A stretch of DNA of 64,000 nucleotides, from the NCBI RefSeq assembly GCF_014652235.1, contig NZ_BMYK01000027.1:1-64000 (forward strand), read 5' to 3'. The notes under the pieces are model-generated. The model searched no databases. It was not told where the DNA came from and worked only from the letters and a program-made list of their open reading frames with translations. This document shows positions 5,866-34,867 of this stretch, in pieces. The stretch comes from Pseudorhodoferax aquiterrae (GTDB lineage: Bacteria; Pseudomonadota; Gammaproteobacteria; Burkholderiales; Burkholderiaceae_C). The translations under genes and the position numbers were made by a program. Position 1 is the first letter of the stretch. Every line of letters starts with the position of its first letter.

Positions 5866-6687
5866 TTCAGGGCCGAGCGGCAGGGCCTGGTCCTGCAAGG
5901 CCTGCAGCAACTCGGCATAGGCCGGCGCCGCGGCCGCCGGATCGCCTTTCACACCGAGTTCGATGTGGCGGCCGTGCTCGGGGTGGTCGACGCTGGGCAG
6001 ACTGAACACCTTGACGCCGGCATGGCTACGCTCAATGCGCTCCATGAGCGGCACCAGGGCCGATTCCATGGCGCCGTAGACGACGACCGAGCGCTCGACC
6101 CACGCCGCGCGCCGGTGCAACCCCGCGTAGTGCGTGTCCAGCACCCACTCGATCATGGGCCAGGCCATGACCGGAAAGCCCGGCACGAAGTGCACATGGC
6201 CCAGGCTGAAGCCGGCGATCTTGTTGTAGGGGTTGGGGATGATGGCCGCGCCCTCGGGGAACACGCCCATGTTGAGCCGGTGCTGGTTGTCCGGCCGGTC
6301 CGGCTCGTAGGGCAGGCCCTGTTCGCGCGCGACGTCCTGCATGCGCTCGCGGATCAGCGCCGCGGCCTCGGGATGCAGCACGAGCGGGCGGCCCAGCGCG
6401 GCACCGGCGCACTGCCGCGTGTGGTCGTCCGGCGTGGCGCCGATGCCGCCGCAGGAGAACACCAGGTCGCCCGAAGCGAAGGCGCGCGCCAGGGTGGCCG
6501 TGATGCGCTCGGGCGCATCGCCCACATAGTCGGCGTAGGCCAGTTGCATGCCGCGCGCAGACAGCAGTTCGATGACCTTGGCCATGTGCTTGTCGGCGCG
6601 CTTGCCCGAGAGGATCTCGTCGCCGACGATGACCAGGCCGACCGCTGTCGGCAGCGTCTCAGGGAGGGGGGAGTGGCGTGGGGGCAT
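5851..6687 (-). CDS. CinA/MoaB-like molybdopterin-binding domain protein
   Basis: Predicted 278-residue cytoplasmic protein with an N-terminal MoCF/CinA domain: VGLVIVGDEILSGKRAD near residue 15 and CGGIGATPDDHTRQ near 80 are the family signature loops. It lacks the C-terminal nicotinamide-nucleotide amidase domain of full CinA (about 400 residues), so it is a stand-alone MoCF-type protein; function in nucleotide salvage or cofactor binding is only inferred. ATG 6687 was chosen because the domain begins 14 residues later. It overlaps the upstream EI24-like gene by 29 bp and is the last gene of the 10366-5851 operon, ending inside the glnA upstream region. Confidence 0.85.
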   Translation of the reverse strand: MPPRHSPLPETLPTAVGLVIVGDEILSGKRADKHMAKVIELLSARGMQLAYADYVGDAPERITATLARAFASGDLVFSCGGIGATPDDHTRQCAGAALGRPLVLHPEAAALIRERMQDVAREQGLPYEPDRPDNQHRLNMGVFPEGAAIIPNPYNKIAGFSLGHVHFVPGFPVMAWPMIEWVLDTHYAGLHRRAAWVERSVVVYGAMESALVPLMERIERSHAGVKVFSLPSVDHPEHGRHIELGVKGDPAAAAPAYAELLQALQDQALPLGPELVRS

Positions 6688-7579
6688 AGGGACGGGAAGA
6701 AGAGGAATCGGCGTCGCCCTGCTCCACCAGCACCGCGCTGGGCGCTGGCCAGGCGGCATCGGCCGGGGCGACCTGCACGCTGGCGGCCTTGGCCCGCATG
6801 GCTTCGAGCGCGGCCAGCGCGTAATGCGTGAACCACAGGGCGGAGAAGGCGAACACCAGCGTGTAGAGCCAGACCGAGACCGGCACCAGCACCGGGGCCA
6901 GCACCACCGTCAGCGCGCCCCAGGCCCAGACCAGCGCGGGCGCGGCGCCCAGGTAGCCGGTCAGCACGCCCAGCGTCAGCAGCGTGAAGCGGTGTTCGCG
7001 CATGAGTTCCGTGCGCTCCGCCTTGCTGGCGTGCTCGGCCAGCACGTCGTAGGACATCACGCGGTAGGTCAGCCAGCCCCAGATCAGTGGCGGCAGCACC
7101 AGCACCAGCGGCGGGATCAGCCACAGCGGGATCGACAGCACCAGCACCACCAGCGCGGCCACGGTGGCCCACAGCGCGCCGAACAGGCTGCCGAGGAAGG
7201 AGCCGCCGCGGCGCTTTTCCAGCCGCGGGAAGCGCCGGTCGCCGACCAGCGCGACCACCGAGGGCGTGACCAGTCCCGCGACCAGCAGCAGCGAGAGCAC
7301 CACCACGAGCGGCGTGACCAGCGCGATCAGCAGCAACGGCGCCACGGCCGCCTGCACGCCGCCGAAGCCCAGGCCCTGCAGCCAGCCCATGACGGTGCCG
7401 AACAGCGGCCAGCCGTGCAGCCAGGCGCGCATCCAGGCCACGGCCGGCTCCCAGAAGAAGTAACCCAGGCCCAGCGAGAGCACCGCCATCAGCACCAGGG
7501 GCAGGACCGACAGGGCGATGACGCGCGGATGCAGGCAGTACGCCGCCGCGCGCCAGAAGGAATCCATGAGCAGACGCAT
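6659..7579 (-). CDS. EI24/CysZ-family membrane protein
   Basis: Predicted 306-residue inner-membrane protein. The opening (SFWRAAAYCLHPRVIALSVLPLVLMAVLSL) is typical of the EI24 domain, also found in the sulfate transporter CysZ. About five to six hydrophobic helices follow at roughly residues 20-45, 70-110, 150-180 and 215-265. There is a Ser-rich C-terminal tail. Substrate is unknown; CysZ identity is not supported because no sulfur-assimilation genes lie nearby. It starts 21 bp after the desaturase-like gene and overlaps the CinA-like gene, so it belongs to the same operon. Confidence 0.8.
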   Translation of the reverse strand: MRLLMDSFWRAAAYCLHPRVIALSVLPLVLMAVLSLGLGYFFWEPAVAWMRAWLHGWPLFGTVMGWLQGLGFGGVQAAVAPLLLIALVTPLVVVLSLLLVAGLVTPSVVALVGDRRFPRLEKRRGGSFLGSLFGALWATVAALVVLVLSIPLWLIPPLVLVLPPLIWGWLTYRVMSYDVLAEHASKAERTELMREHRFTLLTLGVLTGYLGAAPALVWAWGALTVVLAPVLVPVSVWLYTLVFAFSALWFTHYALAALEAMRAKAASVQVAPADAAWPAPSAVLVEQGDADSSSSRPYAPTPLPPP

Positions 7580-7600
7580 GGCTGGAGGATACCCCGCTGC

Positions 7601-8572
7601 TCAGGCCCGCCCGACCAGGCGCAGCACGCCCAGCCATTGCTGGCGCCAGAAGCCGCGGCCGTAGTCGCGCAGGCCGCGCGCGCCGGGCTCGACCTGGTCG
7701 CGGATGCCGGTTGGGTCGTAGCGCAGCGCGAAGTCGGCCGTGCGGAACAGCATGTCCCACCAGGGCAGCAGCACGCCGAAATTGACGCCGCCCAGGCGCC
7801 TGGGCTGCTGCTGCGACTCGTGCCCGATGCCGATGCTGTGGTGCCGGCGGTGGAAGCGCGGGCTGACCCACAGCCGCTCGCCCCAGCGGCCGAACCACAG
7901 CCGCAGGTTGGCGTGGTGGAAGTTCTCGGACAGCTGCGTGAGCGCTACGATGGCGACGAACTGGCCCGGCCCCACACCGATCAGCTGCGCCAGGACGACC
8001 AGGATGGCGTCGCGCAGCACGTCGTCCAGCAGGTGGTTGCGGTTGTCGCTCCACATGGTCATCTGCCGCTGCGAATGGTGCAGCGCATGCAGGCTCCACC
8101 ACCACTGGAAGCGGTGCTGGCCGCGGTGGATGCAGTAGTCGGCGAAGTCGAACACCAGGAGGTAGAGCACGAAGCTGACCCAGGCCACGTCCGTCACGCC
8201 GGGCCACAGCCCGTCCAGGTGCCAGGTCGACAGGCCCTGCACGCGCAGCCAGCCGAACACATCGTCCATCCAGGGCTCGAGCGTGAAGAACAGCGCCAGG
8301 CGGAACAGCCCCAGCCGGTGCACCAGCGTGTAGAGGATGTCGGTGCGGATGGCGGCGCGGTCGGTCACCGGCTCCACGGGCCGCCAGCGCTGCAGGGGGC
8401 CGATCACGAGCAGCATGGCGGCGATCTGCAGCAGGCCGACCAGCAACCAGCCGGTGGCCGTGAACGCGTCCTCCAGCCAACCGCCCAGGCCGATGGCGAA
8501 CACCGCGGGCTGCACCAGCGACTCGAACAGCCACTGCTGGGCCGTGCCGAACAGGTCGGTCAGCGACTCCAT
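7601..8572 (-). CDS. Sterol desaturase / fatty acid hydroxylase family protein
   Basis: Predicted 323-residue integral membrane di-iron enzyme. The histidine clusters are HRGQH near residue 155, HALHH near 169, a middle NFHHAN near 228 and HRRHH near 249, matching the HxxxH / HxxHH pattern of the family. Four hydrophobic segments precede and surround them. Members hydroxylate or desaturate lipids or sterol-like substrates; the substrate here cannot be read from sequence. ATG 8572 overlaps the deacetylase gene by 13 bp. The neighbours (propeller, deacetylase, EI24) suggest a role in the envelope, which is inference. Confidence 0.88.
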   Translation of the reverse strand: MESLTDLFGTAQQWLFESLVQPAVFAIGLGGWLEDAFTATGWLLVGLLQIAAMLLVIGPLQRWRPVEPVTDRAAIRTDILYTLVHRLGLFRLALFFTLEPWMDDVFGWLRVQGLSTWHLDGLWPGVTDVAWVSFVLYLLVFDFADYCIHRGQHRFQWWWSLHALHHSQRQMTMWSDNRNHLLDDVLRDAILVVLAQLIGVGPGQFVAIVALTQLSENFHHANLRLWFGRWGERLWVSPRFHRRHHSIGIGHESQQQPRRLGGVNFGVLLPWWDMLFRTADFALRYDPTGIRDQVEPGARGLRDYGRGFWRQQWLGVLRLVGRA

Positions 8573-9393
8573 GGCGGGTCGTCCCTGTGCGCGGCGATCC
8601 AGCGCTGGTAGTCGGGGTGCTCGCGCAGCGTCGCGAAGCACATGCCCTTGGCCTTGAGGCCCTCGATCAGCGGCTCCAGCACGGCAGGGGCCCAGGGGTC
8701 CTTGCGCGACCAGATGCCCAGGTGGGCCACGAGGATCTGGCCCGGCCTGATGTCGCGCAGCGCCTTGGCCAGCAGCTCGGCGTTGGAATAGCGCTCGCTG
8801 GGCAACTCGTCGCCCAGGAAGCCGGCCGGCGCCCAGCCCACATGGGCATAGCCGCAGCCGCGCGCCACCGACAGCAGCGTCGGCGAGGTGCGCCCGCCCG
8901 GCGCGCGGAACAGCGGCAGCGGCGGCTGGCCCGTGAGCTCCTCGAGCCGGCGCGCGGCGCGGCCGATTTCCTCGCAGTACTGGGCAGCCGTGAACAGCCG
9001 GGTCTGGCCGATCTGCGGGCCGGCCGAGGCGCGGATGCGAAAGCGCGCCGTGCCGTCGCGGCCGGGCGGCACGTCGGCGCTCCAGTAGACATGGTCGTAG
9101 GTGTGCGAGGCGAAGGCATGGCCTTCCTGCGCGCGTGCGCGCCACCAGGCGGCCCAGTCGTCGCCCAGGCTGCCGTCGCCCTGCTGCGTGGCCTCGTTGG
9201 CGGCGAAGAAGGTCACGCGCACGTCCTGGCGCTTGAGCACGTCGGCGATCAGCGGGGCCACGCCCATGTGGCCGGTGTCCAGCGTGAGGTAGACCGGCCG
9301 CGTGCAGTTGGCCGCAGCTTGGCCGCTCAGGACCAGCGCGACGGCGGCCGCGATGGCCTTGCGCAAGAACAGGCCACGCTCAGCGCGTGGCAT
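8560..9393 (-). CDS. Exported polysaccharide deacetylase (NodB fold), atypical metal site
   Basis: Predicted 277-residue protein with a signal peptide (residues 1-28, ending SGQAAA). NodB-fold motifs are recognisable: motif 1 LTLDTGH near 33, motif 2 SHTYDH near 95, motif 3 RAPGGR near 160 and motif 5 LVAHLG near 235. In canonical carbohydrate esterase 4 enzymes motif 1 is DD; here the second Asp, a metal ligand, is Thr. The enzyme could bind metal differently, act on another substrate, or be inactive. ATG 9393 begins the signal peptide; it overlaps the upstream propeller gene by 14 bp and the downstream desaturase-like gene by 13 bp, indicating tight translational coupling. Confidence 0.85.
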   Translation of the reverse strand: MPRAERGLFLRKAIAAAVALVLSGQAAANCTRPVYLTLDTGHMGVAPLIADVLKRQDVRVTFFAANEATQQGDGSLGDDWAAWWRARAQEGHAFASHTYDHVYWSADVPPGRDGTARFRIRASAGPQIGQTRLFTAAQYCEEIGRAARRLEELTGQPPLPLFRAPGGRTSPTLLSVARGCGYAHVGWAPAGFLGDELPSERYSNAELLAKALRDIRPGQILVAHLGIWSRKDPWAPAVLEPLIEGLKAKGMCFATLREHPDYQRWIAAHRDDPPWSR

Positions 9394-10366
9394 GGTCCAG
9401 GGTCCAGACGCCATGCGGCGAACGGCCGACCTTGACCTGCTGCACGAGCTTGCCGGTCTGCAGATCGAGCACGCTGAGCTTGCGCGCCCAGCGCGAGGTG
9501 AAGTACAGCAGCCGGCCGTCGGCCGACAGGTCCATGCAGTCCGGCCCGCCGGGCGCGGCAAAGCTGGCCACGGCCTCCAGGGTCTGCAGGTCGATCTTGC
9601 TGATGGTGTTGGCGACACGGTTGCTGACGAAGACGTGGCGCCCGTCGCCCGCACTGCGGAAGGCATGGGCACCGTTGCCTGTCTTGATCAATTTGGCGGC
9701 GCGGGGTTCCTTGCCCGAAATGTCGAACACCTGCACGCCGTCGGCACCGGTCAGGCCGACCAGCAGGCTCTTGCCGTCCGGCGTGCCGAACACGTCGGCC
9801 GGCATCTTGCCGGTGGGCACCTGCCAGCGGATCTGCTGGGTGGCCAGGTCCACGGCGATCAGCTCGTCGCTGTCCTGCACCGAGACGTAGGCCGTGGTGC
9901 TGCGCGCGTCGATCCAGATGTGGCTGGGCGTCTTGCCGGTGGACAGGCGGCGCGCCAGCTGCAGGTCCTGGCCGTTCCAGCGGTACAGGTCGACGTGGTT
10001 GAGCCGGTTGGCGGCGATCACCAGCCACTTCATGTCGGGCGAGAAGCGCAGATGGTAGGGGTCGACGATGCCCGGCACCACCTTCTGCACCTCGGCCGTG
10101 CGCGGGTCGATGAAGGTCAGCGAATCGCTCAGCGCGTTGGCGACGATCACCGACTTCTCGTCCGGCGTCATGTACAGGTGGTGCGGCTCCTTGCCGGTGG
10201 CGATGCGGCGCGTTTCCTGCCAGCTGACCGGGTCGATCACGCTGACGGAGGCGTCCAGGGAGTTCAGCACGAAGACCGGAGCGCGCTGCGCCCGGGCCGC
10301 CAACGGAGACAGCACGGCCAGCGCGAGCAGCGCGGCGCCGAGCCGAAACAGAAACGAGGATTTCAC
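9380..10366 (-). CDS. Periplasmic YncE-like beta-propeller protein
   Basis: Predicted 328-residue protein with a signal peptide (residues 1-27, ending ARAQ) followed by repeated blades of the YncE/cytochrome d1-like seven-bladed propeller: VFVLNSLDASVSVIDP, SVIVANALSDSLTFIDP, TAYVSVQDSDELIAVDL, HVFVSNRVANTISKIDL and LYFTSRWARKLSVLDL. No haem or catalytic motif is seen, so a binding or scaffolding role is likely. GTG 10366 is the only suitable start. The sequence GCTACACTGC just upstream (minus strand, about 10390-10399) may hold its -10 box. This is the first gene of a five-gene overlapping operon running to 5851. Confidence 0.85.
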   Translation of the reverse strand: MKSSFLFRLGAALLALAVLSPLAARAQRAPVFVLNSLDASVSVIDPVSWQETRRIATGKEPHHLYMTPDEKSVIVANALSDSLTFIDPRTAEVQKVVPGIVDPYHLRFSPDMKWLVIAANRLNHVDLYRWNGQDLQLARRLSTGKTPSHIWIDARSTTAYVSVQDSDELIAVDLATQQIRWQVPTGKMPADVFGTPDGKSLLVGLTGADGVQVFDISGKEPRAAKLIKTGNGAHAFRSAGDGRHVFVSNRVANTISKIDLQTLEAVASFAAPGGPDCMDLSADGRLLYFTSRWARKLSVLDLQTGKLVQQVKVGRSPHGVWTLDHATR

Positions 10367-10390: not shown

Positions 10391-10454
10391 GTGTAGCGCC
10401 GCCGTCTGTCAGCCAGCCGTCAAGGCCGCCAGGTCCGCGGTACGCAGCCAGCGC
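10391..10454. repeat. Left 64-bp direct repeat: rsuA 3' end remnant
   Basis: Matches 13267-13330 at 59 of 64 positions by my alignment. On the minus strand it reads RWLRTADLAALTAG-stop, almost identical to the last residues of the intact RsuA (RWLRAADLAALTAG). It is therefore the tail of a second rsuA gene, now separated from its 5' remnant by the glycosyltransferase and ligase genes. The repeat ends where the propeller gene's promoter region begins. Confidence 0.9.
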
Positions 10455-10502
10455 ATGAAAAGCCAGGGTGTCACCATAGGAAGCACAGAACGTGTGGCCA
10501 GT

Positions 10503-11819
10503 TCATGGCGCTCTACCAGCCCCGCCCGCCGCAATGCCCCCGTGCGGCGGGTAGGCCAGGGCGAGCAACAGCGCTGTCATCACGCAGTAGAACGCCGCGA
10601 CCATGGACGTTGCGAACATGACCTCGGTCAGGCCGACGCCCAAAAAGCCCAAGGCCAGCAGCAGGCCCATCAGTCCTGCAATGCGTTGGTCTTTTGCCCC
10701 GTGACGCATGGCTTTAAAGAAGTACCAAGCGGGCACCAGCCACACAGCAAGGATCGCGACTCCACCGACGATGCCCAGTGTTGCGAGATTGAACAGGAAT
10801 TCGTTGTGCGAATGGCGGTAGCCTGTTGCAGTCGGCGTGATCCATCCCTTGCGCGCCATCTCGACCATGGCCTGGCCATAGTGCTGGCGGCTGACCCCCA
10901 GGATGGGATTGGACTGGAACACCACCCAAGCAGCAGTCCAGAGCTGGAGGCGATTGCCAACCGAACTGTCCAGGCCGTGGCCCGCTCGATACTCGATCAC
11001 CTCGGTGTACGCAGAATCGATGCGCTCGCGAACATGCCCGCTGAAGTGGTAAGCCAGAACGAGCGTCGCCAGCAGCAGCCCGATTCCGGCCAGCTTGGTG
11101 CGCGAGCGCAACGGCGCGAGCCAATACAGGAGGGGCATCAACAGCGCCAGCGCGAGCCAGCTACCACGCGCGCCAGACAACAGCAGGACATAGAGTCCTG
11201 CGATGGCACCGATCATCTTGGCGACCACAGCAGCGCGTCCGGCACGCGTTGCCGGATCAGACCAACCGATCGAGATCAAGGAAAACAACCCCAACAACAT
11301 GGCAATGCCGCTGAATGGCAGCAGATTGGTGAAGAGGATTTGGTTCGGCCGTATCTCCTCGGACACGGCAAACCGGTGCGTCAGGATGACTGCAGCGGCC
11401 ACAGCGCCTGCCACGCATCCCCACTCGAAGAGCTTGAGCCAGCGGGCTGGCACCTGGCGAAGCAACCAGAGGATGGGTGCCAGCAACGCCAGTCGAAGTG
11501 GCGTGTCCAACTCTTTCAGGTCCTGCAACACCTGCGGCTCGCGCAGGGCCACCGCCAGCGTGCTGAGGCCGGCGGCCACCAGAGGCAAGGCCAGGCCGAC
11601 GCAAATTGGCCACCAGCGAACGCCGCCGGGCAGCGGCGCAGAAGCTCGCCGCCACCGCCACAGCGCGCCCACCAGCGCCAGAACCAACAGCAGGAACAGC
11701 AAGCGGTTGGCACTGCCGCGCAGCACCAAAGTCGAGGCCGGAAGCAAGGCAGTTGCGCAGGCAGCCAGCCCTAGGAGCGGACCGGGAAGCGGCATGGTCG
11801 CGTTCGACACCCGCATCAT
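10503..11819 (-). CDS. O-antigen ligase / polymerase family (Wzy_C) membrane protein
   Basis: Predicted 438-residue polytopic inner-membrane protein with about 11-12 hydrophobic helices. The Wzy_C hallmarks are the segment LLLSGARGSWLALALL near residue 215 and the periplasmic-loop signature YRHSHNEFLFNLATLGIVGG near 355. Such proteins (WaaL/RfaL type) join O-antigen or outer-core sugars to lipid A-core, or polymerise O units. ATG 11819 overlaps the glycosyltransferase stop in an ATGA arrangement. GC is markedly low: line 11281-11340 has 29 G/C in 60 bases, against 48 of 60 at 14521-14580, so the gene was probably acquired. Confidence 0.88.
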   Translation of the reverse strand: MMRVSNATMPLPGPLLGLAACATALLPASTLVLRGSANRLLFLLLVLALVGALWRWRRASAPLPGGVRWWPICVGLALPLVAAGLSTLAVALREPQVLQDLKELDTPLRLALLAPILWLLRQVPARWLKLFEWGCVAGAVAAAVILTHRFAVSEEIRPNQILFTNLLPFSGIAMLLGLFSLISIGWSDPATRAGRAAVVAKMIGAIAGLYVLLLSGARGSWLALALLMPLLYWLAPLRSRTKLAGIGLLLATLVLAYHFSGHVRERIDSAYTEVIEYRAGHGLDSSVGNRLQLWTAAWVVFQSNPILGVSRQHYGQAMVEMARKGWITPTATGYRHSHNEFLFNLATLGIVGGVAILAVWLVPAWYFFKAMRHGAKDQRIAGLMGLLLALGFLGVGLTEVMFATSMVAAFYCVMTALLLALAYPPHGGIAAGGAGRAP

Positions 11820-12892
11820 GGGGCTGGCAATGCGCGGCGCAGGCTGACCGAGAACGCCAAGAGATCTTCGACATGCGTTCGCACACGAGGCGAATAGCAC
11901 AGGTGCGCGAGAGGATCGGCCAAGCGTGCATCCGGCTGAGCAGCACGCCGAACTGCTCGGCCAATGGCATCGGTCAGGGATTCGGGATGACTGGCATCAA
12001 AGGTCAGGCAGGCCTGTGGTGACAACGCTTCGGTACTGCCGATCCCGCTCGGCAAGACGGCAGGCGTGCCGCACAAGACAGACTCCGGTCCGACCAGTCC
12101 AAACGGCTCGTAGCTGGATGCCAGGATCGTGAAATCTGCGGCGCGGTAGCAATCCTGAATGTCCTGCCGATAGCCCATATATCGGATGCGGTCAGAGCGC
12201 GCGTCGACGGGCCGGCCCGCCACGAGCAGCACGACCGGCGATGGATGGGCGGCAAAGGAGCGCTCAAGCAATGGATAGCCCTTGCGCTCATGGCTAGTCG
12301 AGGGAAAGAGAAATGCCGTCGTGCCCGCAGCGATGCCCAAGGCGCACCGCAGTTCGGCACGGCGACGGGCGTCCACGGGGCAAAACATTACAGGATCCAC
12401 AGGCGGATACAAAACCCGGAGCCGTTCGGCGGACACGTCGTAGAAGTCGCGCAACTCACGCGCCATCATTTCCGAGTGTGCCAACACCAGATGCGCGTTC
12501 GCGTAGTGCTGGCGTTCCAGTGCGACCTGCCATCGGTCCCAACGGGTGGCAGGACGGCCCGAATGCCGAAGGTGGCCCAGATGGGTGCCGCCGCAAATGG
12601 CGATGTCCGAGATCACGGTGCGGCTGCAACCGATCAGCAGGTCGATGCGGTAGCGTGCCTTCAACGCCCGCATGCGTGCCGAGACGTAATGGTCCCGCAA
12701 CTTGCCCGGTAGCGCCCATACGGGAATACGCACCGGCTCGATCCAGCTGTACTCGGGAATCGCCGTGTCGAAATCCCGGGCGAAAACGACCGGTTGCAGG
12801 CCCAACTCACGCAAACCCTTCACCAGGTCGACGGTGTAACGCTCCATGCCGCCACCGTAGCCAAAGCGGTGGCAAGCGATGCCCAGCCTCAT
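11816..12892 (-). CDS. GT4-family LPS glycosyltransferase
   Basis: Predicted 358-residue GT-B retaining glycosyltransferase. The N-terminal Rossmann part begins RLGIACHRFGYGGGMERYTVDLVKGL, the nucleotide-sugar domain has FPSTSHERKGYPLLE near residue 195, and the GT4 E-x7-E motif is EPFGLVGPE near 260. It resembles WaaG-type core glucosyltransferases, but the donor and acceptor cannot be fixed. It has ATGA overlaps with both the small chimeric ORF upstream and the O-antigen ligase downstream, forming a three-cistron unit. GC is near 55% in parts (33 of 60 at 12121-12180), unlike neighbours, which supports horizontal origin. Confidence 0.88.
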   Translation of the reverse strand: MRLGIACHRFGYGGGMERYTVDLVKGLRELGLQPVVFARDFDTAIPEYSWIEPVRIPVWALPGKLRDHYVSARMRALKARYRIDLLIGCSRTVISDIAICGGTHLGHLRHSGRPATRWDRWQVALERQHYANAHLVLAHSEMMARELRDFYDVSAERLRVLYPPVDPVMFCPVDARRRAELRCALGIAAGTTAFLFPSTSHERKGYPLLERSFAAHPSPVVLLVAGRPVDARSDRIRYMGYRQDIQDCYRAADFTILASSYEPFGLVGPESVLCGTPAVLPSGIGSTEALSPQACLTFDASHPESLTDAIGRAVRRAAQPDARLADPLAHLCYSPRVRTHVEDLLAFSVSLRRALPAP

Positions 12893-13050
12893 GCCATGAC
12901 CCGCGGGAAAGAGAACCGGTGCCTACGCTCACCAGAGCGGAGGCCCGCAGACAGGGGGGCCAGGGCGGCGCCGATGCGAAGCGAAACTTCCACTTCCGTG
13001 TGCGCCACATCCACGTGGCCTGGGGAAAACAGATCGTCCTGCAACTGCAT
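12889..13050 (-). pseudogene. Chimeric small ORF: RsuA N-terminus fused to an unknown tail
   Basis: A 53-codon frame beginning MQLQDDLFSPG, matching the first residues of the intact RsuA (MQLQDILFSQG), then diverging into HVDVAHTEVEVSLRIGAA and an Arg-rich end not found in RsuA. Its stop overlaps the glycosyltransferase start (ATGA), so its translation may feed the downstream gene. It keeps the rsuA-like promoter and start codon upstream. The simplest reading is a deletion that joined codon about 11 of a second rsuA copy to the end of a lost gene. It could be expressed as a leader peptide; I see no domain in it. Confidence 0.7.
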
Positions 13051-13143
13051 GGGTGAACGCTGGGTCAGAGACCTCCGCGACAAGCCGGTAAAAAGTGGGC
13101 CGCCGATGATAGCGGCAGCGCGTTTTGCTCTGCCATGGCCTGA
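13030..13143 (-). repeat. 5' remnant of second rsuA: promoter, leader and first codons
   Basis: Aligns with 14017-14117, the 5' end of intact rsuA. Shared are TCCTGCA-CTGCATGGGTG around the start codon, the block GATGATAGCGGCAG (-10 box TATCAT on the minus strand, 13111-13106 here and 14084-14079 in rsuA) and an ATGGCCT upstream. Divergence is greater than in the 3' remnant, with small indels. It drives the chimeric ORF and probably the LPS genes. Confidence 0.8.
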
Positions 13144-13266
13144 GAAACGTTCGCCCACCTGGAACCCAGCACCGCCGCGACATGCGCAAGGCATGTCGGC
13201 ACTGTCAGCATGTCTATGCAGGAGTTTCCGATCGCCTAGGGTGCGCCGCATGCAAGGCGTCGCTGC

Positions 13267-13330
13267 GTGTAGCGCCGCCGTCTGTCACCCAGCCGTCAGG
13301 GCCGCCAAGTCCGCGGCGCGCAGCCAGCGC
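13267..13330. repeat. Right 64-bp direct repeat: 3' end of intact rsuA
   Basis: Partner of 10391-10454. It covers the last 16 codons and stop of rsuA plus 18 bp downstream (GTGTAGCGCCGCCGTCTGTC side). In the left copy the same downstream 18 bp leads into the propeller gene's upstream region, suggesting that rsuA originally directly preceded that operon. The 234 bp between 13051 and 13284 hold only this repeat and the duplicated promoter region. Confidence 0.9.
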
Positions 13331-14037
13331 CATTGGCCGGGCGCCAGGTCGGCGGGCAGGGCCAAAGCGCCGATGCGCGAACGGTGCAGGCCTTCGACGC
13401 GGTTGCCCACCGCGGCCAGCATGCGCTTGACCTGGTGGTATTTGCCGCTGGTCAGCGTCAGCCGCAGGTGGCGCGCGGCGCCGTCGGCATCGACGATCTC
13501 GGCCGCTGCGGCCTGCACCGGGCGCGGGTCGTCGTCCAGCACCACGCCGCGCAGCAGCGCATCGACTTGCCTGGCATCCAGCGCATGCTTGGCCTGCACC
13601 TCGTAGACCTTGGGCGTGAGCTTCTTGGGCGAGGTCATGCGGTGCAGGAACTGGCCGTCGTCGCTGAGCAGCAGCAGCCCGGTGGTGTCCTGGTCGAGCC
13701 GGCCGACGGCCTGCACGCCCTGCAGTGCGCCCTTCTGCGGGCGCTGGCGCAGCGGCGCGGGCAGCAGCGTGTAGACGCTGGGGTAGGCCGAGGGCTTGTG
13801 CGAGCACTCGGTGCCGGCCGGCTTGTGCAGCAGCACGTAGGCCTTCTCGAAGTACTCCCAGTCCTGGCCCTGCACGCGAAAACGCAGGCCTTCGGGTTCG
13901 AAGTCCGCGGCCGATTCGGTGCAGGGCAGGAAGACGCCATCGGCGCCCGCCACGGCCACATGGCCCTGCTGGACCAGCCCGGCGCAGACGCGCCGCGTGC
14001 CGAAGCCTTGAGAAAAGAGGATGTCCTGCAGCTGCAT
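13285..14037 (-). CDS. rsuA: 16S rRNA pseudouridine(516) synthase
   Basis: Predicted 250-residue RsuA/RluB-family pseudouridine synthase acting on 16S rRNA during small-subunit assembly. A short S4-like RNA-binding region opens the protein (QLQDILFSQGFGTRRVCAGLVQQGHVAV), and the catalytic motif is VQAVGRLDQDTTGLLLL near residue 105 (Asp nucleophile in GRLD). The later LTSGKYHQVKRMLAAVGN is the conserved family loop. Length is usual (230-250). ATG 14037 with -10 TATCAT at 14084-14079. Its 5' and 3' ends are each duplicated downstream (13030-13143 and 10391-10454). RsuA is the best match, although a paralogue assignment within the family is possible. Confidence 0.93.
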   Translation of the reverse strand: MQLQDILFSQGFGTRRVCAGLVQQGHVAVAGADGVFLPCTESAADFEPEGLRFRVQGQDWEYFEKAYVLLHKPAGTECSHKPSAYPSVYTLLPAPLRQRPQKGALQGVQAVGRLDQDTTGLLLLSDDGQFLHRMTSPKKLTPKVYEVQAKHALDARQVDALLRGVVLDDDPRPVQAAAAEIVDADGAARHLRLTLTSGKYHQVKRMLAAVGNRVEGLHRSRIGALALPADLAPGQWRWLRAADLAALTAG

Positions 14038-14280
14038 GGGTGGACGGGCCAGGCGCGGCCCGCAAAAAACGGCCGCAGATGATAGCGGCAGGGCACACGC
14101 CCCCCCGCCTATGGCCTAGGAGCGCGGCAGTTGGCACGGCCCCGATGCAAGAATCCACCGTACTGATCGCCGGCGCCCTGGCCGTCCAGGCCCTGAATCG
14201 CGCCCACGACGGCTGCTGTCCCCAGGCGCCAGAAGCAGGCCGCAGCCAGGGCTCGGGTGGGAGGGGCCGTTCCCACGTTC

Positions 14281-15186
14281 TCAGCGCAGGAAACGCAGCA
14301 CGTCCCCGCCGAAGCGCTCGGGATACTGGAACAGGAAGCCGTGGCCCGCATCCGGGTAGAGCACCAGCGTGGCGTCGGGCAGGGCCTGGGCCATCGCATA
14401 GGAGGCATAGGTGGCCACCATGGTGTCGTGCCGGCCGTTGGCGACCAGCACCGGCTGGCGCACCGCGCCCAGCCGCGGCAGCAGCGAGGCCGCCGGGTCC
14501 TGCAGCGCGAGGGCCGAGGCCAGCTGCGCCTGCCAGGCCGCGGCCTCGACCTGCCGCACGAAGGCGTCGGGCCGCTGGCGCAGCCGCGCCAGGTAGTCGC
14601 GCCCGGCCTGCTGGCTCGTGGCCGTGGGCTCGAAGAACAGAAACAGGAAATCCTCGTCGGAGTTGACCGGCTTGGTCGCCACCTGCCAGACCGCCGGGCT
14701 GCCGACGTCCGGGTCTTCCGGCAGGCCTGGCACATGGCCGGGGCCGGAGCCGGCGACCACGGCGCGGCGCACCAGCGCCGGATGGTCCAGCAGCAGCTGC
14801 AGCGCCACGGTACCGCCCATGGAGAAGCCCAGCACGTCCAGCTCGGCGATGCCCAGCGCCTGCGCGAAGGCGGCGGCGTTGGCCGCGAAGGCCGCCACGC
14901 TGGCAGGCGGCGTGCCTTCCGAACGCGCGAAGCCGGGCTGGTCGAACAACAGCACGCGGCGCTCGGCCGCCAGCACCGCGAGCAGCGCGGGGTCCCAATG
15001 GTCCATGGTCCCGCGGAAACGGTTCAGCAGCAGCAGCGGCACACCGCCCTCCGGGCCCAGCGCACGGTAGGCGACGAGGTCGCCGCCCACGCGCACCGTG
15101 CGGGTGGGCGCGTGCGTGGCAGACGTGGCCGCCGCCGGCTCGGCGAAGACAGCACAAGGGCGCAAGGGAAGGCGAAGAAGCGGCAT
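14281..15186 (-). CDS. Alpha/beta hydrolase
   Basis: Predicted 301-residue alpha/beta-fold hydrolase. The nucleophile elbow is LGFSMGGTVALQ near residue 128, the acid is probably NGRHD near 245 and the catalytic His is in PDAGHGFLFQ near 275. The N-terminus (PLLRLPLRPCAVFAEPAAA) is weakly hydrophobic and may be a signal-like segment. ATG 15186 was chosen; an ATG at 15219 is also in frame. Substrate unknown; the sequence resembles carboxylesterase and haloperoxidase-like members. It is transcribed divergently from the SMP-30-like gene with 159 bp between them, in which I see no clear operator. Confidence 0.82.
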   Translation of the reverse strand: MPLLRLPLRPCAVFAEPAAATSATHAPTRTVRVGGDLVAYRALGPEGGVPLLLLNRFRGTMDHWDPALLAVLAAERRVLLFDQPGFARSEGTPPASVAAFAANAAAFAQALGIAELDVLGFSMGGTVALQLLLDHPALVRRAVVAGSGPGHVPGLPEDPDVGSPAVWQVATKPVNSDEDFLFLFFEPTATSQQAGRDYLARLRQRPDAFVRQVEAAAWQAQLASALALQDPAASLLPRLGAVRQPVLVANGRHDTMVATYASYAMAQALPDATLVLYPDAGHGFLFQYPERFGGDVLRFLR

Positions 15187-34480: not shown

Positions 34481-34867
34481 TGGTGGAGCTGGGGGGATTT
34501 GAACCCCCGTCCGCAAGCCATCTTCGCGCAGATCTACATGTTTAGCGGTCTGTTTTAGGTCTCGCTTCCTGTGTCGCGCAGCCGCACGCTACACAGGACG
34601 CCAGTACCCTTGGATCTCGCCCCTTGCCAAGGTACCCGGCAGGGAGCCAGCCAACGTGAATAACCTTACAGCCGGGAGCTCAGGATTCGCATCCATCACC
34701 CCTTGCCCAGCCCGCTGGCATGCTGTTGTAAGGCTCACCGGTGTTTAAGCGGCGAGTGCGAAACGTTCGTCGTTTGCAGTTAGTTTGTTTGAATCTGTTT
34801 AACGAGCGCATTCAGCTCGACATGCACCACAGCGATTCCGAACCCACGTCGAAACCAATGCAGCCCC
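34481..34867 (-). ncRNA. ssrA: Transfer-messenger RNA
   Basis: A 387-nt tmRNA that rescues stalled ribosomes and tags their products. The minus strand begins GGGGCTGCATTGGTTTCGAC, whose GGGGCTG pairs with the 3' CAGCTCC-ACCA (34481-34491); the 3' part has the T-arm GGGTTCAAATCCCCCC-like sequence. The tag reading frame (34777-34745) encodes ANDERFALAA and a TAA stop, the tag typical of Burkholderiales. The 3' CCA is encoded. Confidence 0.97.
34745..34777 (-). other. tmRNA tag-peptide reading frame (ANDERFALAA)
   Basis: Ten codons from the resume codon GCA at 34777 to the TAA at 34747-34745. The last residues LAA are the usual ClpXP/ClpAP degradation signal. Confidence 0.95.

Follow-up and report, generated by a model that had tools for sequence, protein, structure and literature searches.

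A glycosyltransferase-ligase pair inserted beside rsuA in Pseudorhodoferax aquiterrae, which has lost most of its native waaL

How did two genes of lipopolysaccharide (LPS) assembly come to lie beside the housekeeping gene rsuA, between repeated copies of its ends? Change in genes for LPS normally takes place within the clusters to which they belong. The window analyzed here is a stretch of 64,000 nucleotides (nt), contig C27 of the 7.1-Mb Pseudorhodoferax aquiterrae genome, in which genes for a glycosyltransferase (GT) and a WaaL-like O-antigen ligase stand between rsuA and a YncE-like beta-propeller gene. We consider it likely that a one-off insertion, perhaps via a single crossover, took over from a native ligase that was deleted elsewhere. 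The paired loss of the native ligase gene waaL, which lies outside the window, is a more interesting fact than the insert at rsuA. In the literature on Pseudorhodoferax and LPS, no title or opening of an abstract mentions such a ligase swap. The locus is made up of the following features.

9380..10366, minus strand: YncE-like beta-propeller gene (Pfam YNCE, E 2e-158), directly 3' of rsuA in 5/5 congeners (42-47 bp, L009-L013); flank of the empty site.
10391..10454, minus strand: second rsuA 3' end, made up of the last codons, the stop codon and the next 18 nt, 59/64 identical to 13267-13330; runs into the propeller leader as in congeners.
10503..11816, minus strand: WaaL-like O-antigen ligase, 437 amino acids (aa) (Pfam Wzy_C, E 6e-20; 7tpg, E 5e-14); guanine-plus-cytosine content at third codon positions (GC3) 0.77.
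11816..12892, minus strand: family 4 GT, 358 aa (Pfam Glyco_transf_4, E 1e-21); nearest relatives found 47-52%; GC3 0.72.
12889..13050, minus strand: putative 53-codon frame that, as read in the sequence, opens with the start codons copied from rsuA and shares ATGA with the GT start; without a Pfam or NCBIfam match.
13018..13121, minus strand: diverged rsuA upstream region and first codons (the 5' scrap), with TATCAT and a T-run hairpin; 71% to the genome's own rsuA, 75% to G005/L012.
13122..13266, no strand assigned: spacer between the end of intact rsuA and the 5' scrap.
13267..13330, minus strand: 3' end of intact rsuA, partner of 10391-10454.
13285..14037, minus strand: intact rsuA-type pseudouridine synthase, 250 aa (PseudoU_synth_2, E 2e-17), 81-97% to congeners.
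14005..14094, minus strand: upstream region and first codons of native rsuA, with which the 5' scrap aligns.

The two copies of the rsuA 3' end differ at five positions without a gap, and, as direct repeats of a homologous target segment, they flank the insert (10455-13266) on either side. The 5' scrap aligns with the native upstream region at 71% identity over 104 positions (E 6.5e-7), including two ungapped stretches, one of 42 nt (81%) and one of 31 nt (84%). Its local alignment score against the native region is 46.5, compared to 19 for the best among shuffled upstream regions. The original prediction, made from the letters of the window alone, had located the 64-bp 3' block exactly and had rightly placed a glycosyltransferase and an O-antigen ligase between the remnants, the two long frames being Glyco_transf_4 and Wzy_C proteins. 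The recurrence it reported for the 5' end is real, but spans 13018-13121 rather than 13030-13143, and the prediction passed over the 145-bp spacer (13122-13266). The protein of the intact gene passes the cut-off of the pseudouridine synthase subfamily TIGR00093, and its top NCBIfam match, RsuA, is below its own cut-off.

We compared rsuA loci of relatives, taking the best 80 of at least 548. Five of these are from congeners (L009 to L013, corresponding to genomes G004, G002, G003, G005 and G001), with Pseudorhodoferax as the record name in four of them. Each of these congeners has the propeller gene 42 to 47 bp past rsuA, and no match to the pair in the locus; this is the empty site that the original prediction had proposed to look for in related strains. 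The compared loci match positions 13144-13266 of the 145-bp spacer over at most 36 nt, own copies aside, and folding of the spacer gives a z score of +1.2. Some record names look wrong: L009, "Variovorax boronicumulans DE0202", falls in the window's genus, and L062, "Pantoea sp. 18069", carries a Comamonadaceae-type rsuA.

The inserted genes are foreign in composition. GC3 is 0.77 in the ligase gene and 0.72 in the GT gene versus 0.89-0.93 in eight neighboring genes (a ninth, for a fatty-acid hydroxylase, being left out), a difference that appears in the codon usage comparison called for by the original prediction. The same prediction spoke of 48-55% GC in places, which holds for stretches of 50 to 100 bp: within 10455-13266 the minima are 0.48 in 50-bp and 0.50 in 100-bp windows, and GC is at or below 0.55 in 21/277 and 6/272 of these windows, respectively. 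Windows of 400 bp never fall below 0.60, and the GT and ligase genes average 0.63-0.64. GC3 is a clearer foreign sign than the local dips. The five congeners have no relatives of the GT at E 1e-40 and none of the ligase at E 0.001, and their own waaL product is a distant relative of the window ligase, with 23-26% identity.

Elsewhere, genes related to the GT and the ligase occur side by side in the same order in L201 and L256 (L201 in another family; GT 52%, ligase 34%), and they lie near each other but convergent in L207, L208, L211 and L230. The neighbors of GT relatives, scanned in three loci, include family 2 GTs and, in two loci, an MsbA-like ABC transporter. The pairing in distant loci and these neighbors suggest that the pair is probably a long-standing LPS module whose source has not been sampled. 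GT relatives in a plasmid collection reach at most 43% among the matches listed, and a search for the DNA of 12889-13266 in 399 genomes of the family gave no donor; the genome sets searched differed from protein to protein.

The window ligase has the characteristics of a WaaL protein. Its Wzy_C domain scores 71.9 bits against a curated cut-off of 31.7, and it matches the solved WaaL structure 7tpg at E 5e-14, compared to E 4e-6 for a congener's waaL product. The ARG, NRL and RHSHN segments of the window ligase align with TRG, VRL and EHAHN of 7tpg, and thereby retain Arg, Arg and His in the columns that we take to hold the catalytic residues. In the structural literature, 7TPG and 7TPJ are described as WaaL, with a proposed catalytic His and with arginines near the pyrophosphate (PMC12800693). 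The window ligase resembles this system (from Cupriavidus metallidurans) in its Wzy_C domain and in the aligned Arg, Arg and His columns, and it lies beside a GT; it differs in being only 23-26% identical to the genus's own WaaL, and in its location beside rsuA instead of between tolB and msbA.

Wzy_C proteins are present in all six genomes of the genus. When the five strongest of this genome were compared to solved structures, a set that left out C1:207419 (above the cut-off only with its neighbors) and C13:37805 (below the cut-off), the window ligase alone matched WaaL. Of the other four, two find no solved chain at E 0.1; the remaining two resemble PglL and have an oligosaccharyltransferase as their structural match. 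All six genomes also carry a distant pseudouridine synthase paralogue within ~11 kb of one or two Wzy_C genes (L234, which is G000:C33, among them), and the Wzy_C genes of G000 near this paralogue are PglL-like.

The native waaL has a conserved place in the genus. The five congeners share a common ligase of 409-434 aa (60-92% identical among them) whose gene lies directly before msbA with tolB on the other side; a GT gene stands between tolB and waaL in G001. When the congener locus L236 is compared to this genome, its positions 6362-9382 and 10431-14362 align, the two pieces overlapping by 3 bp, and the intervening 1,048 bp are absent. The deletion covers all of waaL but its last 70-80 codons, as well as 43 bp upstream. 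Correspondingly, tolB and msbA stand 539 bp apart in this genome, whereas the distance is 1,589-1,603 bp in four congeners and reaches 3,320 bp in G001, which has the extra GT. A search with waaL as the query lists only the remnant in this genome (residues 331-408). The original prediction missed this loss, since the locus lies outside the window.

Among 200 genomes of the family, the waaL search at E 1e-30 gives 13 with a match, made up of the remnant described here, two congeners and ten genomes from nine further genera, and leaves 187 without such a ligase. All 12 full waaL loci include msbA, directly next and in line in 10 of them, 1.2 kb on in L260, and in the opposite direction in L269; tolB is within the 1.5-kb flanks of 8. 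The waaL-msbA order is thus old, although 187 of the 200 genomes lack such a ligase at this threshold, and the loss in this genome is derived within the genus. A variable slot is found between a ThiF gene and cpoB (L236 5281-6303, L255 6308-7279, L240 10615-11607), and is occupied by a glycosyltransferase in G002 and by another protein, of 323 aa, in four genomes. A 65% relative of the G002 slot GT is encoded directly upstream of waaL in G001.

We propose that a single insertion in the ancestry of this genome placed the GT gene, followed by the WaaL-type ligase gene, between rsuA and the propeller gene, and that the pair would stand in for the genus's own waaL, now mostly deleted between tolB and msbA. 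With a foreign pair beside rsuA and most of the native gene gone, it seems that the cell has exchanged its O-antigen-attaching enzyme, and a functional swap is a good bet. LPS core and ligase genes undergo horizontal exchange, and the present case is alike in that a foreign GT and ligase are found in place of native ones. It is different in that the replacement is at another locus, while the native gene is deleted in place. The native ligase gene is largely gone from its conserved position, and a ligase that looks unrelated, together with a GT, now lies next to a housekeeping gene. Should the new ligase be functional, a small insertion elsewhere can change the enzyme that joins O antigen to core, and with it perhaps the phage receptors and the cell surface. 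Typing of LPS from locus position would score this strain as lacking a ligase.

Past the spacer, the insert starts with a scrap of an rsuA upstream region and gene start. We infer the source of the rsuA scraps, the route of entry, and which of insertion and deletion came first, and also that the new ligase performs the native function and that expression signals are provided by the scrap. It is a guess that the scrap, with its TATCAT, its T-run hairpin, and an rsuA start that opens the 53-codon frame, drives the pair. A more specific proposal, in which ligase function was relocated from tolB-msbA to the side of rsuA and the copied upstream region and start serve, via the coupled 53-codon frame, as the expression signal of GT and ligase, is tentative, and we would sooner doubt it than rely on it. 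A terminator-like hairpin with a T run is found just 5' of the rsuA start in both copies (13099-13119 and 14072-14089), and is a candidate terminator, attenuator or promoter overlap.

As to the route of entry, the original prediction had supposed that no integrase took part, and indeed no recombinase family is found in the frames of the insert that were scanned, namely the two long frames and the 53-codon frame but none of the antisense frames that overlap them. A transposon or integron was rejected because these frames lack a recombinase family. A single crossover with a circular molecule carrying an rsuA end would leave the 64-bp direct repeat. In a study of E. coli, single-crossover integrations left partial target duplications of 109-950 bp in 14 sequenced clones, and homology-facilitated illegitimate recombination generally deletes target DNA (PMC3240628). 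The former events resemble the insert in that a direct repeat of the target gene's end flanks it and one gene copy is intact, and differ in that the repeat here measures 64 bp and an extra 5' rsuA scrap lies inside the insert. The latter resemble it in the short foreign insert and the lack of a recombinase, but usually involve a deletion of similar size at the site, whereas target sequence is duplicated here. The insertion was probably one event.

The copied rsuA ends also bear on their own origin. Each 3' copy differs from L011 at six positions plus one gap and from L010 at seven or eight plus one gap, and no column holds a base that is common to both copies yet absent from all of L009-L012. 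As the copies differ from each other at five positions and share no private base, the 3' repeat may be a home-made duplicate or may come from a close congener. Judged by local alignment, the 5' scrap belongs with this genus and shows no greater similarity to the native region than to that of congeners: it scores 46.5 with the native region, 53.5 with L012, 46 with L010 and L011, 40.5 with L009, at most 27 with other genera, and at most 19 with shuffles, and the native region and L010 score 94 with each other. The estimated divergence of the scrap depends on the alignment, with 12/89 mismatches plus 16 gap positions in a generous one and 30/96 differences in a global one. A tree of 105 columns gives the scrap a long branch and leaves three of its four inner branches open. 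A foreign scrap is likelier in our view, with a fast-decaying copy of the genome's own rsuA as the alternative. The original prediction had offered two routes, a second rsuA whose interior was replaced or a foreign segment that brought its own rsuA ends; foreign LPS genes flanked by rsuA ends are indeed present, and neither the scrap nor the 3' copies settle the choice.

Several observations weigh against a single insertion that replaced the native ligase. It is seen in a single genome, from one strain of the species, and other Wzy_C proteins of this genome could act as the ligase. No donor was found; the closest relatives found reach at most 38% for the ligase, which was sought in 60 relatives and 399 genomes of the order, and at most 52% for the GT, which was sought in 399 genomes of the family and in plasmids. 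A scan for sigma-70 consensus promoters near the GT gene found none. In the global alignment, divergence is higher for the 5' scrap than for the 3' repeat (30/96 versus 5/64, Fisher 0.0004), whereas the generous alignment gives 12/89 versus 5/64 (Fisher 0.31); since the outcome flips with the alignment, one source event and two are not told apart.

An alternative that we regard as possible, if doubtful, is that the pair came along as a passenger, adding or altering a sugar, and that the loss of waaL is unrelated to it and reflects rough LPS or the use of another ligase. The pair and the waaL remnant are two loci on different contigs, and the four other strong Wzy_C proteins would provide candidates. 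However, two of these four lack a solved-chain match and two resemble PglL, and the window ligase keeps its active-site columns. A tandem duplication of rsuA in place in this lineage, after which the LPS pair replaced the interior of the downstream copy, is an unlikely account, although the 3' copies, with 5/64 and no gap, are slightly closer to each other than either is to the nearest congener (L011), the 12/89 mismatches of the generous alignment fit drift since the split from L010 (P 0.21), and a clade of scrap and native region is not rejected by the approximately unbiased test (p-AU 0.46). Against this, the 30/96 differences of the global alignment are far too many (P 2e-8), the scrap has an end branch of 0.56 versus 0.085, and its leader is longer than the native one, with four indel events between them. 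Moreover, the stretch between the copies is not visibly copied from the region upstream of native rsuA, and the 3' copies share no base that is absent from all four nearest congeners.

The original prediction went further in suggesting that rsuA ends serve as a recurring recombination anchor for swapping LPS cassettes. The window itself, with LPS genes between two rsuA ends, invites this idea, but the relatives make it very improbable. Both rsuA and a downstream propeller gene are present in 45/80 loci (the five congeners included), with gaps of at most 266 bp in 37 and at least 844 bp in 8. The main frame in seven of the large gaps encodes an alpha/beta hydrolase, and L029 has lyase, CoA-transferase, LysR, PrpF and TctC genes; none of the 15 frames scanned in the eight gaps belongs to an LPS family. 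No LPS genes lie between rsuA and the propeller gene in any of the 45 relatives, so the other cassettes anticipated at this site did not appear, and at E 1e-10 neither the GT nor the ligase of the window has a match in any of the 80 loci. A search of the 80 loci, a few of which stop a short way from rsuA, for further copies of the rsuA ends gave none in its vicinity and a single stray match, of 34 nt, 10 kb from rsuA in L011; the window, used as a control, returned both. Judging from the compared genomes, LPS genes are therefore not exchanged at the rsuA site. That the repeats are chance or family-wide sequence can hardly be credited: no point in its favor was found, the repeats score far above shuffles, and no further copy was listed in the genome among the first-look candidates scored (40 and 2).

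Other elements were observed 5' of rsuA and in the rest of the window. A 59-bp element at 14197-14255, upstream of rsuA, has at least 19 other matches in the genome at 78-79% (40/874 candidates scored) and is likely a repeat of the repetitive extragenic palindromic (REP) type. Inspection by eye of many other Comamonadaceae (L014-L088) revealed that GCGATACT ends a few nucleotides before the rsuA ATG, as if the rsuA mRNA of those species were leaderless; the window's genus, also judged by eye, has no such feature. The sole Rfam match above its gathering score in the window is a transfer-messenger RNA (tmRNA) gene at 34481-34867.

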